Shown in pieces: positions 13,185 to 29,311 of a stretch of 32,007 nt of DNA. The DNA comes from a bacterium (GTDB lineage Bacteria; CG2-30-53-67; CG2-30-70-394), in NCBI GenBank assembly GCA_024278555.1, contig JAJRSX010000161.1, forward strand, positions 1 to 32,007, read 5' to 3'. Both the position numbers and the translations under genes were made by a program. The notes under the pieces are model-generated. The model had not been told where the DNA came from. It was given only the letters and a program-made list of their open reading frames with translations, and did no database searches. Each line of letters starts with the position of its first letter. Positions within the stretch are counted from its first letter, which is position 1.

Positions 13185-13219
13185 CCGTCCCACCCTTGCC
13201 GGCGGGACGGGTTTTCTGT
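13185..13219 (+). terminator. Intrinsic terminator after batD-batE
   Basis: A 7-bp stem (CCGTCCC at 13185-13191, GGGACGG at 13204-13210) with a 12-base loop is followed by GTTTTCTGT. It begins four bases after the stop codon. Confidence 0.8.
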
Positions 13220-13293
13220 ACCCTCCCGCGCTTCGTGCGTTTCCTCGATCTATGCCAATCCGGGCCGTGAGACCTGGATTTGTGGCCCTTCCC

Positions 13294-13448
13294 GGGTCGA
13301 CTTCGACCCCGCACCACATTCCACATTGTGGTGAAGACCGGATCTGAGGCGACCACCAGGACCGCAGCGAGTTGCGGCCACGGGGAGGGCAGTGGCCGCC
13401 AGGCCACCGGGTGGAGGCGACGTGCTTGCGGCACACCCTCTGGGTGTG
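13294..13448 (+). other. Multi-hairpin leader upstream of the SulP gene
   Basis: This gene-free stretch contains a string of short perfect dyads: 13294-13299/13304-13309 (GGGTCG), 13312-13318/13327-13333 (CACCACA), 13362-13366/13373-13377 (CCGCA), 13392-13397/13402-13407 (GTGGCC), 13422-13425/13431-13434 (GTGC) and 13432-13438/13442-13448 (CACACCC). The last two share bases and so exclude each other, as in switch-like leaders. It could be a structured 5' UTR, a small RNA or a repeat remnant. It was not recognised as a known riboswitch. The SulP start with its GGAG lies 56 bp downstream. Confidence 0.35.
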
Positions 13449-13503
13449 TCCGGTCGGGGTCGATGTCTGACCTCCTGTTGAATCCTTGCCGTTGGAGTCT
13501 TTG

Positions 13504-15303
13504 ATGAGCACCACCGCACCTGTTGCCTCTGAGTCGCGCATCCCGCCGTGGCTCACCCGCCTTCTCCCCTTCCTCCTCTGGTGGGAGCGGGTCACCCCTT
13601 CGTCTCTAAAGGCGGACTTCCTCGCCGGCCTTACCGGCGCCATTGTCGTCCTCCCACAGGGGGTCGCCTTTGCGGCGATCGCCGGAATGCCGCTCCAGTA
13701 CGGCCTCTACGCGGGGATGGTGCCGGCGATCATTGCCGCCTTCTTCGGCTCTTCGTGGCACCTGGTCTCTGGCCCGACCACCGCCGCGTCGCTGGTGCTC
13801 CTCTCCACCCTCTCCGCCTTCGCGCCGCCGGAGACGCCGCAGTACGTCCAGCTCGCCCTCACCCTCACCTTCATGGTCGGGGTAATCGAGCTGGCCATGG
13901 GGTTCGCCAAGCTCGGTACCCTGGTGAACTTCATCTCCCACCAGGTGGTCCTCGGCTTCACCGCCGGCGCGGCGGTGCTCATCGCCGCCAACCAGATCAA
14001 GAACTTCGTCGGGCTGCCGATCCCGCGTGGCCATTTTACCGATATCTTCGGCTACCTCTTTACCCACCTCGGGCAGATCAACGGCTACGTCACTTTGGTG
14101 GCCACGGTCACCGTGGTCTCGGGGATCATCGGCAAGAAGTACTTCCCCCGGATCCCCTACATGATCACCTCGATGCTCACCGGCAGCCTCCTGTCCGTGG
14201 GCCTCAACTACTTTCTGGGCCAGGACGTCACCGGGATCCAGACGGTGGGAGCCCTGCCCCAGACCTTGCCGCCCCTGTCGCACCCGGACTTCTCCCTGAA
14301 GACAATTGAGCAGCTCGCCCCCGGCGCGGTGGCGGTCACCCTCTTCGCCCTCACCGAGGCGGTCTCCATCGGCCGGGCGCTGGCGGTGCGCGCCGGCCAG
14401 CACATCGACGGCAACCAGGAGTTCATCGGCCAGGGGCTCTCCAACCTCGCCGGCTCCTTCTTTTCCGGCTATGTGGCCACCGGCTCATTCAACCGCTCCG
14501 GCCTCAACTTCGAGGCGGGCGCCCGGACGCCGATCGCCGCCGCCTTCGCCGGCCTGCTCCTCATGGGGATCATGGTCCTGGTGGCGCCGCTCGCCGCCTA
14601 CCTGCCGAACGCGGCCATGGCCGGCGTCCTCTTCCTGGTGGCGTGGGGGCTGATCGACTTCGAGCACATGCGCAAGGTGGCGAAGACCAACAGGTCGGGG
14701 ACCATCGCCATGGTGGTCACCTTCCTCGCCTGCCTCTTCCTGAAGCTGGAGGACGCGATCTTCCTCGGGGTGATCCTCTCCCTGGTCCTCTACCTGAATC
14801 AGACCTCGCACGCGAAGGTGGTGCGGCGGGTGCCGCACCCGGAGCAGGACAAGCGGCGGTTCGTCAACGTCACCGAGCACGCGGTCCCCGAGTGCCCGCA
14901 GCTCCGCATCGTACGGATCGACGGCTCCCTCTTCTTCGGGGCGGTGGAGAACGTGCGCAACGCCCTGACCCAGTTCGAGGAGGCGAACCCGCAGCAGAAG
15001 CACGTGGCGATCGTCGCCGACGGGATCAACTTCATCGACGTCGCCGGTGCCGAGTTTCTCACCGAGCTCGCCCGTGAGCGGCGCAAGGACGGCGGCGACC
15101 TCTACCTCCTGCGGGTGAAGGAGGGGGTCTGCACCCCCCTGCGCAACGGCGGCTTCCTCGACGAGATCCGCCCGGAGAACATCTTCAAATCGAAGACCGA
15201 GGCGATCGAGGAGATCTTCAGGCGCCTCGACAAGCAGGTGTGCGCCACCTGTCCGGTACGCATCTTCAAGGAGTGCGAAGAGCTCCCGCCGCCGCAGGCG
15301 TAA
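13504..15303 (+). CDS. SulP-family anion transporter with STAS domain
   Basis: This is an inner-membrane transporter of the SulP/SLC26 family, whose members carry sulfate, bicarbonate or other anions. The 599 aa protein has the SulP transmembrane core in residues 35-430, including DFLAGLTGAIVVLPQGVAFA and SGPTTAASLVLL. A cytoplasmic STAS domain follows at about 455-560. The C-terminus carries a cysteine cluster, C580-x2-C583-x7-C591, beyond the STAS domain, which may bind metal or sense redox. The ATG at 13504 has GGAG six bases upstream; a slightly earlier in-frame ATG (13486) lacks this. The substrate is not certain; bicarbonate and sulfate are both plausible in an autotroph. A strong hairpin pair follows the stop codon. 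Confidence 0.92.
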   Translation: MSTTAPVASESRIPPWLTRLLPFLLWWERVTPSSLKADFLAGLTGAIVVLPQGVAFAAIAGMPLQYGLYAGMVPAIIAAFFGSSWHLVSGPTTAASLVLLSTLSAFAPPETPQYVQLALTLTFMVGVIELAMGFAKLGTLVNFISHQVVLGFTAGAAVLIAANQIKNFVGLPIPRGHFTDIFGYLFTHLGQINGYVTLVATVTVVSGIIGKKYFPRIPYMITSMLTGSLLSVGLNYFLGQDVTGIQTVGALPQTLPPLSHPDFSLKTIEQLAPGAVAVTLFALTEAVSIGRALAVRAGQHIDGNQEFIGQGLSNLAGSFFSGYVATGSFNRSGLNFEAGARTPIAAAFAGLLLMGIMVLVAPLAAYLPNAAMAGVLFLVAWGLIDFEHMRKVAKTNRSGTIAMVVTFLACLFLKLEDAIFLGVILSLVLYLNQTSHAKVVRRVPHPEQDKRRFVNVTEHAVPECPQLRIVRIDGSLFFGAVENVRNALTQFEEANPQQKHVAIVADGINFIDVAGAEFLTELARERRKDGGDLYLLRVKEGVCTPLRNGGFLDEIRPENIFKSKTEAIEEIFRRLDKQVCATCPVRIFKECEELPPPQA

Positions 15304-15364: not shown

Positions 15365-15558
15365 GGGGAAGGGGCTCGGAATCTGCACCGCGCCTGCCCC
15401 GACCGCCCTCCCCCCGCGCCCCGCGCGGGGGGGAGGCGCGCCCATCAGCCACCGCTGCGCGGCGGACGGACTGTCTGGCTTCCCCTCGTCGCTACCCTCC
15501 GGTAGGGTCAGGTCGACACCCGCCCGCCACTACTAAGCTAGCTCGACGAGGGGATGCG

Positions 15559-17064
15559 ATGCCGATCCTGAAGACGCCCCGGGGGAAGAGAATCCTCCAC
15601 CGCGCGCCGCGCCGCACCGTGGCGGTAATGGCGCGGTGGGCGACCACCCCGCTCGGGGCGCGGGAGGTCACCCGGCTGCTCATCGATCGGCGGTGGCTAT
15701 TCCTGGGGCTCCTCCTCGGTCTGGTCCTCCAGCTCCTGCCGGTGCCGGTGGGGCTTACCCACGAGGGGCGGACGGTCCTCACCATCACCGCGGTGGCGAC
15801 CCTCTATTTCATCACCGAGGCGGTCCCTCTGCCGACGGTGGCGTTGATGATCGCCATCTTCCAGGTGCTGCTGCTGGGGATCGCTCCCAACGACGTGGCG
15901 CGGTCGTTCATGAGCGACTCGGTCTTTTTCATCATGGGGTCGCTCATGCTCGCGGTGGCGATCGTCAAGCAGAACCTCGATCGCCGTATCGCCCTGTTCA
16001 TCCTCAACCTCACCGGTCCCAAGATCAGTCGCATTGTCTTCGGGGTGGTCACCGTGTCGGCGATCATCGCCTCGTTCATCGGTGAGCACACGGTGGCGGC
16101 GATGATGCTGCCGGTGGGGATCACCCTGGTGCGCCTCTCCTCCTACAGCCCGCGCAAGGTTCCGGGGCTGGCGGCGTTGCTCATGTTCTCCATCGCCTAT
16201 GGCTGCTCCATCGCCGGCATCGGCACCCCGTCGGGCGGGGCGCGTAACGCCATCATGATGGGCTACTGGGACGAGTTCGGGATCGCCCAGATCAGCTATC
16301 TCGACTGGATGATCTACTGCTACCCGATGGTCCTGGTGCAGATCCCCTTCCTCACCGGCATCCTGCTCTTCACCTTCAAGCCGGAGGTTCGCGACCTCAC
16401 CCCGGCCCTCTCCGCCCTGCGTGAGCAGGTGGAGGAGGATGGGCCCATGGGGGGGCAGGCGTGGCTCGCCATCGGGATCTTTGCCCTCACCCTGCTCGGC
16501 TGGGTGACGATCTCGGGACAGATCGGTATGGGGACGGTGGCGCTGATCGGCGTCACCCTCTATCTCTCCCTCGGGCTGGTGAAGTGGGATGACATCTCGG
16601 TGAACGTCAACTGGGGGGTGGTTCTGCTCTACGGCGGGGCAATCTCTCTCGGCGTGCAGATGAAGGACACGGGCGCGGCCGAGTGGCTGGCGAGCTCTAT
16701 CTTGCAGGCCCTCACCCCCCTTGGGGCGGGCCACGGGATTGGCCTGAGCGCGGCGGTCTCGGCGCTGACCACCCTGCTCACCAACACCATGAGCAACGGC
16801 GCGGCGGTGGCGGTGCTGGGGCCGATCACCCTCAACATGGCCCAGCACTCGGGCGACTCGCCGATCGTCGTCGGACTGGTGACCGCGGTCTCCTCCGCCT
16901 TCGCCTACTTCACCGTGGTGGGGACGCCCGCGTGCACCATTGTCTACGCTTCCGGCTATCTTAAGACGACAGACTTTCTCAAGGTCGGCTGGCGGATGTT
17001 CATCGCCTCCTTCGTCCTGATTCTGCTCATGTCGCAGTTCTACTGGAGCCTCTTCCATGTCTAG
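15559..17064 (+). CDS. SLC13/DASS-family sodium:anion symporter
   Basis: This inner-membrane protein belongs to the divalent anion:Na+ symporter family (CitT/SdcS/SLC13), whose substrates include dicarboxylates, sulfate and phosphate. The 501 aa protein has about twelve hydrophobic segments starting near residue 38. It shows the two re-entrant hairpin motifs of the family in modified form: GIGTPSGGARN in the first half and LLTNTMSNGAAVAVLGP in the second, plus VVGTPACT near the C-terminus. The first 35 residues are basic and cytoplasmic. The ATG at 15559 is preceded by GAGGGG. It overlaps the following universal stress gene by eight bases, so the two are probably co-expressed. The substrate cannot be told from sequence. 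Confidence 0.88.
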   Translation: MPILKTPRGKRILHRAPRRTVAVMARWATTPLGAREVTRLLIDRRWLFLGLLLGLVLQLLPVPVGLTHEGRTVLTITAVATLYFITEAVPLPTVALMIAIFQVLLLGIAPNDVARSFMSDSVFFIMGSLMLAVAIVKQNLDRRIALFILNLTGPKISRIVFGVVTVSAIIASFIGEHTVAAMMLPVGITLVRLSSYSPRKVPGLAALLMFSIAYGCSIAGIGTPSGGARNAIMMGYWDEFGIAQISYLDWMIYCYPMVLVQIPFLTGILLFTFKPEVRDLTPALSALREQVEEDGPMGGQAWLAIGIFALTLLGWVTISGQIGMGTVALIGVTLYLSLGLVKWDDISVNVNWGVVLLYGGAISLGVQMKDTGAAEWLASSILQALTPLGAGHGIGLSAAVSALTTLLTNTMSNGAAVAVLGPITLNMAQHSGDSPIVVGLVTAVSSAFAYFTVVGTPACTIVYASGYLKTTDFLKVGWRMFIASFVLILLMSQFYWSLFHV

Positions 17065-19788: not shown

Positions 19789-21189
19789 ATGGAAGAAGTC
19801 GCCCACGCCGCCGAGGCCGTCACCGCCATCTCCCCCTCCATTTACTGGCTGGCGACGGGGATCTTCGTCATCGCCTACGCGGTGATCGTCTCGGAGAAGA
19901 TCCACAAGACGAAGGTCGCCCTCATGGGCGCCGCCCTGATGATCGCCATGCCGATCCTCACCCAGTTCGAGGCCTTCCACTCGGAAGAGTTCGGCGTCGA
20001 TTACAACGTCATCTTTTTGCTCATCTCGATGATGATCATCATCAACATCATGAGCAAAACCGGGGTCTTCGAGTGGGTGGCGATCCGCACCGCGAAGGCG
20101 GCCAAGGGCAAGCCCTTCACCATCATGGCGCTCTTTGCGGTGATCACCGCGATCGCCTCGGCGCTCCTGGACAATGTCACCACGGTGCTGCTGCTTGCAC
20201 CGGTGACCCTGCTGATCGCCGATGAGCTCGACGTCGACCCGGTCCCCTACCTGATCGCCGAGGCCCTGGCCTCGAACATCGGCGGCACGGCGACGCTCAT
20301 CGGTGACCCGCCGAACATCATGATCGCCTCGAAGGCCCACTACGGCTTCGTTGACTTCATCTACCACCTCACCCCGGTGATCATCATCATCATGATCGCC
20401 TTTCTCATCGTCTTGAAGGTGTTGTTCGGGAAGAGGCTCCACGTCACCGAAGAGAAGCGGTTGCGGGTTATGGCGATGGACGAGTCGACCCTCATCAAGG
20501 ACACGGTGTTGATGAAGAAGTCGCTCTTCGTCATGGCCTGCGTCATCATCGGCTTTACCCTTCACGGGCTGCTCCACCTGGAGCCGGCGACCATCGCCCT
20601 GACCGGCGCCGCTACCCTGCTGTTGATCTCCGGTGAGCACCCGCACCAGATCCTCGCCGACGTGGAGTGGACCACCATCTTCTTCTTCATGGGGCTCTTC
20701 ATCATCGTCGGCGGGGTGGTGAAGGTGGGGCTGATCAAGGACCTCTCCCAGGTGGTGATCGCCGTCACCCACCCGACCCAGGACTCGATGCTGGCCACCA
20801 GCTTCGTGATGCTGTGGTTCTCGGCCATCGCCTCGGCGATTGTCGACAACATCCCCTTCGTGGCGACGATGAACCCCCTGGTCTTGGACATGGCAAACAC
20901 CGTCTTCCACGGTGGCGCCCACAACGCCGCCGCCCTCACCCACGCCACCTTGCACCACGAGGTCCTGGAGCCGGTGTGGTGGTCCCTCGCCTTGGGCGCG
21001 TGTCTCGGGGGCAACGGCTCCCCCATCGGCGCATCGGCCAACGTCATCGTCGTGGGCATGGCGGAGAAGGCGGGGCGGCCGATCTCCTTCGGCAAGTTCA
21101 TGGCCTACGGCTTCCCGATCATGATCATGACGCTGGTGATCAGCACGGTTTATGTGTATCTGCGGTACTACGTGTTGCACTGGTATTGA
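19789..21189 (+). CDS. nhaD: NhaD/ArsB-type ion transporter (Na+/H+ antiporter-like)
   Basis: This 466 aa inner-membrane protein belongs to the ion transporter superfamily group that includes NhaD Na+/H+ antiporters and ArsB. It has about eleven to twelve membrane helices. The two family half-motifs are present: LLDNVTTVLLLAPVT (DNVTT at 128-132) with IGDPPN (172-176) in the first half, and AIVDNIPFVATMNPL with GNGSPIGASANV in the second. The first 15 residues are acidic and precede the first helix. NhaD proteins exchange Na+ or Li+ for H+ in saline or alkaline habitats. NhaD and ArsB-like permeases share these motifs, so the ion is inferred. It follows a CBS-domain gene. Confidence 0.85.
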   Translation: MEEVAHAAEAVTAISPSIYWLATGIFVIAYAVIVSEKIHKTKVALMGAALMIAMPILTQFEAFHSEEFGVDYNVIFLLISMMIIINIMSKTGVFEWVAIRTAKAAKGKPFTIMALFAVITAIASALLDNVTTVLLLAPVTLLIADELDVDPVPYLIAEALASNIGGTATLIGDPPNIMIASKAHYGFVDFIYHLTPVIIIIMIAFLIVLKVLFGKRLHVTEEKRLRVMAMDESTLIKDTVLMKKSLFVMACVIIGFTLHGLLHLEPATIALTGAATLLLISGEHPHQILADVEWTTIFFFMGLFIIVGGVVKVGLIKDLSQVVIAVTHPTQDSMLATSFVMLWFSAIASAIVDNIPFVATMNPLVLDMANTVFHGGAHNAAALTHATLHHEVLEPVWWSLALGACLGGNGSPIGASANVIVVGMAEKAGRPISFGKFMAYGFPIMIMTLVISTVYVYLRYYVLHWY

Positions 21190-21234: not shown

Positions 21235-21246
21235 GCCTCCCCTCCG

Positions 21247-21290
21247 GTAGGAGCCGGCTCCCGCCGGCGATCAGGCCCTTCGGGCCTGCC
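21247..21290. repeat. REP-like palindromic element
   Basis: The segment begins GTAGGAGCCGGCTCCCGCCG, containing the 12-bp palindrome GGAGCCGGCTCC, and continues with AGGCCC-TTC-GGGCCT. This is the typical pattern of REP elements (GTAGGAGC followed by nested palindromes) known from many Gammaproteobacteria. It lies between convergent genes, as REPs usually do. Confidence 0.65.
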
Positions 21291-21378
21291 GCGCCCACGG
21301 CGCGGATCGCGCCACCGAAGAGCCGCCCCGCCTCCCCCTTCGTGCCAGGGATTTTCACCTCCGGGTTAAAATCCCCCC

Positions 21379-29200: not shown

Positions 29201-29311
29201 ACGAGAATAGGTATTTTTTTGTGATCAGGAGTCCGTCGGACTGATCGCCTCGCTCCCTCGCCACGATCGCCAAAGTTCGACAGACTCCTCGTGCGATCGG
29301 CGGACGACTCG

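Follow-up and report, generated by a model that had tools for sequence, protein, structure and literature searches.

A conserved element with a predicted three-stem junction before a SulP-DASS operon, probably a small genus-specific genetic switch

The SulP-DASS locus and its upstream region

The window analysed here, a stretch of 32,007 nucleotides, is contig C139 of a 3.06-Mb genome (G000) whose phylum is represented by 8 genomes. It carries a gene for a SulP-type anion transporter, which the earlier note had recognised and which is identified by TIGR00815 from its start at 13504, and next to it, as in the related genome G001, a gene for a DASS-family anion symporter (Table 1). G001, the MAG Nitrospirae bacterium CG2_30_70_394, is the sole genome of the same genus that was compared, and its SulP locus is referred to as L043. 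A further match of the window SulP, to the DauA model PRK11660.1 (E 2.8e-73), stays below that model's cut-off. Close homologues of the SulP protein (E<=1e-60, nearly full length) occur in three of the eight phylum genomes, namely that of the window, G001 (78% amino acid identity) and G004 (64%). All eight genomes have dsrA above cut-off, and these are therefore bacteria with dissimilatory sulfur genes; the available part of the published account describes the physiology of CG2_30_70_394 as unclear (PMC7596348). In the window's own genome two dsrA-type genes, both above cut-off, lie about 5 kb apart on one contig (G000:C162:17628-23595). At the SulP C terminus (window 15241-15276) the residues C580, C583 and C591 are invariant in the window, G001 and G004 (CxxC...RIFxEC), possibly marking a site for metal binding or redox chemistry past the STAS domain.

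Table 1. Features of the SulP-DASS operon and its leader, in window coordinates
Feature	Position	Strand	Basis or remark
Terminator-like inverted repeat and T-run	13185-13215	+	Ends upstream BatD-domain gene; read from sequence
TGTACCCTCCCGCG block; putative promoter -10/start	13217-13230	+	TGTACCCTGCCGCG in G001 leader
Hairpin AATCCGGG/CCTGGATT	13257-13280	+	Folds; within window-only stretch
Two perfect hairpins of the earlier note	13294-13309 and 13312-13333	+	Dyad scan; absent from G001
Conserved core, predicted three-stem junction	13341-13421	+	Alignment, blastn, folds
P1 5' strand GCGACCACC	13349-13357	+	Pairs with 13410-13418 GGTGGAGGC; least certain helix
P2 hairpin CCGCAG-CGAG-TTGCGG	13362-13377 (13362-13367/13372-13377)	+	Dyad scan, fold
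Conserved purine-rich P2-P3 joining strand ACGGGGAGGGCA	13380-13391	+	Alignment; -CGAGGAGGGCG in G001
P3 hairpin GTGGCC-GCCA-GGCCAC	13392-13407 (13392-13397/13402-13407)	+	Dyad scan, fold
P1 3' strand GGTGGAGGC, Shine-Dalgarno-like	13410-13418	+	Fold, alignment
Possible 19-codon upstream ORF	13422-13481	+	GTG start 4 bases past GGTGGAGG; not conserved in G001
4-bp hairpin GTGC/GCAC, overlaps next hairpin	13422-13434	+	Dyad scan
Second TGCGG, possible competitor for CCGCA 13362-13366	13427-13431	+	G001 counterpart L043 2501
P4 hairpin CACACCC/GGGTGTG	13432-13448	+	Dyad scan, folds; G001 counterpart L043 2506-2529, other sequence
SulP Shine-Dalgarno GGAG	13494-13497	+	Sequence; TGGAGTCTNTGATGAG common to G001
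SulP-type anion transporter with STAS domain	13504-15303	+	TIGR00815 above cut-off; PF00916, PF01740
DASS-family anion symporter	15556-17064	+	Next gene after SulP in window and G001

The gene upstream of SulP in the window is a BatD-domain gene, and the terminator that the earlier note had placed before its dyads is seen there as a terminator-like inverted repeat. Its arms are CCGTCCC (13185-13191) and GGGACGG (13204-13210), followed by GTTTT, and the pattern scan missed it because its loop is too long for that scan. The block just downstream, present in both leaders, may be a promoter; a pattern scan found no match to the sigma-70 consensus at 13217-13230, and the exact pattern TGTACCCTNCCGCG has a single occurrence in G000 and two in G001, of which one lies in the SulP leader. 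From the shared TGTACCCT (13217; L043 2361) to the conserved core is a distance of 124 bases in the window and about 42 in G001. The extra 82 or so bases of the window contain the hairpins 13294-13333, which on this comparison are therefore either a local addition in the window or a loss in G001. Between core and gene, the possible 19-codon ORF has two Cys codons near its end, and its Shine-Dalgarno, a good one, lies inside P1.

The earlier note had pointed to at least six short perfect dyads within the 155 bases 13294-13448, and a scan with loops of 3-8 bases found all of them again, with stems of 6 bp (13294-13309), 7 bp (13312-13333), 5 bp (13362-13377), 6 bp (13392-13407), 4 bp (13422-13434) and 7 bp (13432-13448), plus two others of 4 bp. 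Stems of at least 5 bp number 5 against a mean of 1.24 in dinucleotide shuffles (reached by 5/500), and those of at least 6 bp number 4 against 0.30 (1/500); a lower limit of 4 bp leaves a weak excess (8 against 4.4, reached by 35/500). The dyad density is above chance and unusual, yet not unique in this GC-rich contig, since 3.8% (at least 5 bp) and 1.1% (at least 6 bp) of its overlapping 155-base windows are equally dense. The surrounding segments fold somewhat better than shuffled sequence, with z -1.94 for 13215-13510 and -2.57 for 13285-13460 (-1.36 for the minus strand of the latter). Set against G001, the dyads are two separate things, a window-only part (13294-13333) and a conserved part within 13341-13421.

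It had also been claimed that the last two hairpins are mutually exclusive, as in regulatory leaders. Their overlap is real (common bases 13432-13434), and as a sign of regulation it is weak evidence. The strong member, P4, is matched in G001 by a hairpin in the equivalent position whose stem is longer and of another sequence; for the 4-bp member only about 4 pairs, one of them G.U, can be drawn there by eye.

Elsewhere in the window, a 63-base near-perfect hairpin with ends AGGAGTC/GACTCCT lies just before an nhaA-like gene (29227-29289). Its right half has at least 24 matches in the window's genome, the window counted, and at least 16 in G001, with varied flanks in the 11 copies that were read, and from these copies it looks like an insertion sequence end or a MITE composed of a pair of them. 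REP-like palindromes (GGTAGGAGCCGGCTCCCGCCGGCGATC) follow the gene 19789-21189 at 21239-21312, and similar copies stand at three places in G001.

Conservation and distribution of the core

Alignment, and blastn of the window against the G001 genome, found the core before the orthologous SulP gene of G001. Identity between the two species is 75-78%; when its two gap columns are included the 81-column alignment is 75% identical, and 13348-13419 reaches 78%. By comparison, three other intergenic stretches, aligned by force, are 54, 63 and 67% identical, and the third codon positions of SulP itself are 66% identical. The local alignment score of the SulP leader is 63, that of the SulP-DASS spacer 21 against a shuffled mean of 19.8, so that the spacer aligns between the two species no better than shuffled sequence. 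Within the core are identical blocks of 12 and 9 bases, which include bases unpaired in the model. The bounds of the core were set after its conservation was seen, and the comparison is one of two sequences. In G001 the gene upstream of SulP is a transporter gene homologous to window 19789-21189 and facing away; the neighbour has thus changed while the leader stayed with SulP. The alignment contains two 1-base indels, 25 columns from each other, which is evidence against a coding frame common to both species.

Conservation in relatives, on which the earlier note had made its reading depend, was thus found inside the genus and was not found in the 79 SulP loci outside it. What stood of the proposed regulatory leader is its 3' part (13341-13421), conserved before the G001 ortholog with its pairs kept; the hairpins 13294-13333 have no G001 counterpart and fall outside the conserved element. 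Even within the phylum, the SulP gene of G004 lacks the core, both by sequence reading and by the lack of a model match.

A model of the core (R1) gave above-chance matches in 2 of 386 genomes under stricter filters, one each in G000 and G001, both before SulP and in the same orientation. Weak matches, a single one per genome, came from seven further genomes (21.5-24.4 bits; per-genome E 0.008-0.046), whereas chance would give about 19 at E<=0.05 over 386 genomes; the one of the seven that was read, L036, looks like an ATPase gene. In the eight phylum genomes, the two real matches are accompanied at E<=10 by 37 weak ones, likewise fewer than expected by chance. All 21 weak hits that were tested lie in open stretches of at least 260 codons, as does the minus strand of the core, so that an open-frame position decides nothing in DNA as GC-rich as this. 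Six further genomes gave no R1 match at E<=0.05. A second model that includes P1 (R2) gave no match at E<=0.003 in 5 plus 17 genomes, 6 of these 22 being already among the 386 and none being a positive control.

Over the window and 80 SulP loci (the best 80 of 148 relatives; 75 with at least 300 bases before the gene and five with fewer, two of these with 1-2 bases), R1 scored above 22 bits in the window and L043 only; R2, applied to 21 sources (the window plus 20 of the 80 loci), found the same two and nothing else. A widespread SulP leader was not found at the sensitivity of these models. Nor is the core a dispersed repeat of the REP or MITE type, blastn in G000 returning one full-length match and 39 others that are short (E >=0.07). 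Viral contigs gave no exact match to one pattern, and plasmids a single DNA match at chance level (E 0.3). The searchable genome collection covers 97,973 of 199,900 known species (about half), with metagenome contigs outside it. As far as these data reach, the core would be a single-gene, genus-level element.

Direct comparison of the SulP upstream regions gave 55 alignments at E<=0.01, one of which is the window with L043. Four groups that were aligned from the rest showed boxes like those of regulators, a small ORF and coding sequence of the upstream gene, and other groups may have leaders of their own; Rfam models applied to 17 of the 80 loci detected one tRNA and nothing else. Among Magnetococcales (L098, L100, L107 and L113; also L068, L094, L105 and L114), the SulP upstream regions carry tandem TTAAC-type boxes with 11-base spacing, which we take to be typical of OmpR/PhoB-type regulators, and in L068, L094, L113 and L114 an apparent histidine-kinase gene ends just upstream. 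Thiothrix-type loci (L082, L083, L084, L090 and L099) have in common a small ORF-like stretch of about 60 codons directly before SulP.

Predicted fold and retention of pairs

The three-stem junction P1/P2/P3 is the minimum-energy fold of the segment 13334-13420 taken alone, and P2 can optionally be extended by GG 13359-13360 with CC 13378-13379. All 19 pairs of this window-only fold are kept in G001. None of 1500 control segments from the same two genomes (equal length, 68-82% identity, partly overlapping, mostly coding, either strand) kept all pairs of its own window fold, the mean being 68%. In a fuller drawn model, 20 of 20 pairs with letters are kept in G001; random placement of the 18 substitutions kept a mean of 15.0 of the 20, and all 20 in 1 of 2000 placements. 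An alignment-shuffle test gave an alifold energy of -29.1 against -20.5 (2/500), and the energy of the core was reached by 64 of the 1500 control segments. For these two genomes it is demonstrated that the core is conserved above background and that its predicted pairs are retained.

The covariation check that the earlier note had proposed yields two pairs only, in two sequences: from window to G001, a C-G pair of P1 changes to U-A and an inner C-G pair of P3 to A-U. Two further pairs change on one side, G-C/G.U on the + strand, and none is broken; P2 and P3 each hold one pair that appears as G.U in a single species (the outer P3 pair goes from G-C to G.U in G001). Sliding the partners by 1-3 columns produced no double change. 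At least two compensatory pairs arose by chance in 106 of 2000 random placements and in 246 of the 1500 control segments, and a letter-dealing control (119/500) was not significant, as expected with two rows; with two sequences, covariation cannot reach significance here. The minus strand of the core keeps 22 of 23 pairs, and the assignment to the + strand therefore rests on the two G.U pairs and the orientation of the gene.

Taken alone the core has no extra stability over shuffled sequence (z 0.05 in the window, -1.02 in G001). In the longer segments 13334-13460 and 13285-13460 and in both whole leaders, other pairings beat the junction, P2 and P3 being kept in some of these folds and P1 in none. 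Enforcing the drawn core in the whole leader costs about 11 kcal/mol in each species. The best fold of the G001 core itself keeps P2 and P3 with another closing helix, CTCTAC/GTGGAG; for the G001 core, the junction of the window lies about 15 kcal/mol above this optimum. The closing helix P1 of the model is accordingly uncertain, since longer folds and G001 itself favour other pairings. A long-range helix of the longer folds, 13285-13294 with 13381-13390, was dropped, as by eye G001 has no 5' partner for it.

Possible function and relation to known systems

The reading to which we incline, by a narrow preference, is that the core is a genus-specific cis-regulatory leader RNA of the SulP-DASS operon that would switch between the junction and an alternative. 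As a genus-specific orphan leader RNA it seems, from the two sequences, slightly better than an even bet, and it is probably a small genus-specific genetic switch. Here we infer transcription of the element, its part in regulation, the direction of control and the identity of the trigger. The SulP-DASS mRNA of the genus would carry a structured 5' leader in which the conserved stretch of about 80 bases (13341-13421) folds into the closing helix P1, the hairpins P2 and P3 and the purine-rich joining strand, followed by P4. This leader would act in cis on transporter expression after initiation, with the junction opposed to an alternative fold that gives other partners to the 5' arm of P2 or to the P1 strands. 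Its output would be a change in translation initiation or in Rho access, rather than intrinsic termination; a pattern scan found no intrinsic terminator between 13215 and 13504, and constrained folds of the whole leaders showed no consistent change in access to the SulP Shine-Dalgarno. The trigger might be a protein, an anion or a small molecule; in dsr-bearing bacteria the obvious guess is sulfate or a related compound.

The most switch-like candidate feature is the second TGCGG, which in both leaders repeats the 3' arm of P2 just before P4 and so offers the 5' arm a second possible partner. It may be a better candidate for a competing pair than the overlapping hairpins, although a repeat of 5 bases could easily be chance.

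The same conservation could reside in DNA, with the inverted repeats P2 (CCGCAG-N4-YTGCGG) and P3 binding a transcription regulator. A palindromic operator would suit the pattern of change in P2, where the species differ at one base of the arms and at all four of the loop, and the Magnetococcales homologues do have tandem regulator-like boxes before SulP; an operator leaves unexplained, however, the conserved joining strand and the P1 strands some 50 bases apart, its symmetry would be broken by the G.U (in one species) at one pair each of P2 and P3, and the site would lie more than 100 bases downstream of the promoter if that is the putative one at 13217-13230. We regard an operator as unlikely, though worth keeping in view. 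Hairpins kept merely for stability, protecting the mRNA or insulating it from upstream transcription with no switching, would fit the free variation between species of the hairpins ahead of the core and a P4 that has another sequence in G001 and is still a hairpin; the identical blocks of 12 and 9 bases, unpaired positions included, exceed what a stability hairpin needs, and such a leader appears improbable to us.

Two further readings have very little probability. In one, translation of the 19-codon ORF from GGTGGAGG (the Shine-Dalgarno-like 13410-13417) would govern the downstream SulP start, 22 bases beyond the end of the ORF. Spacing and GTG start are good in the window and GGTGGAG is identical in G001, but there the nearest ATG is 13 bases off, a poor distance, and leads in frame into SulP without a stop, and the peptides of the two species are unlike; control by a leader peptide is hardly to be expected. 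The other takes the region 13341-13421 as the source of a separate small RNA, processed from it or transcribed across it, as the compact structure of the element and its place between terminator-like repeat and gene might suggest. Each genome, however, has a single above-chance match, before SulP and equally oriented despite a different upstream neighbour, which makes this highly unlikely.

The earlier note had recognised no known riboswitch core, and this is borne out: Rfam 15 covariance models have no match at gathering score in the whole window, and at E<=10 the two leaders show two and three sub-threshold matches to unrelated families. A T-box leader, for which we took the motif GGGTGG as a ground, has no match at E<=10 in either leader. 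The sul1 RNA motif is alphaproteobacterial and stands before sulfate transporter genes. It resembles the present leader in its position before a sulfate-transporter gene; it differs in that neither leader has a plausible Rfam match at E<=10. The motif is named in the available part of PMC7371854. The Moco RNA motif, described in excerpts of PMC2408646 as a conserved leader before molybdate transporter genes, is alike in being a conserved leader before oxyanion transporter genes and is set apart by the lack of an Rfam match at E<=10 in either leader.

In the accessible portions of the literature searched, no leader RNA of a SulP gene is described in this lineage, and only the dauA motif (PMC11109978) comes close; the available excerpts of PMC8632094 and PMC2864571 do not mention sulfate or SulP. 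The Streptomyces dauA motif (SRC-36-1), an orphan riboswitch candidate with a predicted three-stem junction before a STAS-protein gene and with sulfate or a surrogate suggested as its ligand (PMC11109978, as excerpted), is the nearest published parallel found. The likeness, on that partial description, lies in a predicted three-stem junction (if P1 holds) before a STAS/DauA-type gene. The dauA junction contains the putative Shine-Dalgarno of its gene, whereas the present one stops at 13418 and leaves 75 bases to the GGAG at 13494, and dauA has 57 representatives in Streptomyces against two for the window core in another lineage. As the Shine-Dalgarno position and the lineage differ, the core, judged by the description of the dauA motif rather than by its consensus sequence, is not filed as a member of it.

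We know of no validated RNA sensor for sulfate. That the core represents an orphan riboswitch class sensing sulfate or a related sulfur oxyanion, its three-stem plan having evolved separately from that of the dauA motif, is a long shot; if true, such a class would control a SulP-DASS transporter operon in sulfur-metabolising bacteria. As a DNA operator or a leader kept for stability, the core would be ordinary. As a second, separate three-stem junction before a STAS-type gene, it would offer a short testable RNA for the sulfate-sensor question alongside the dauA motif, from a lineage that carries dissimilatory sulfur genes.
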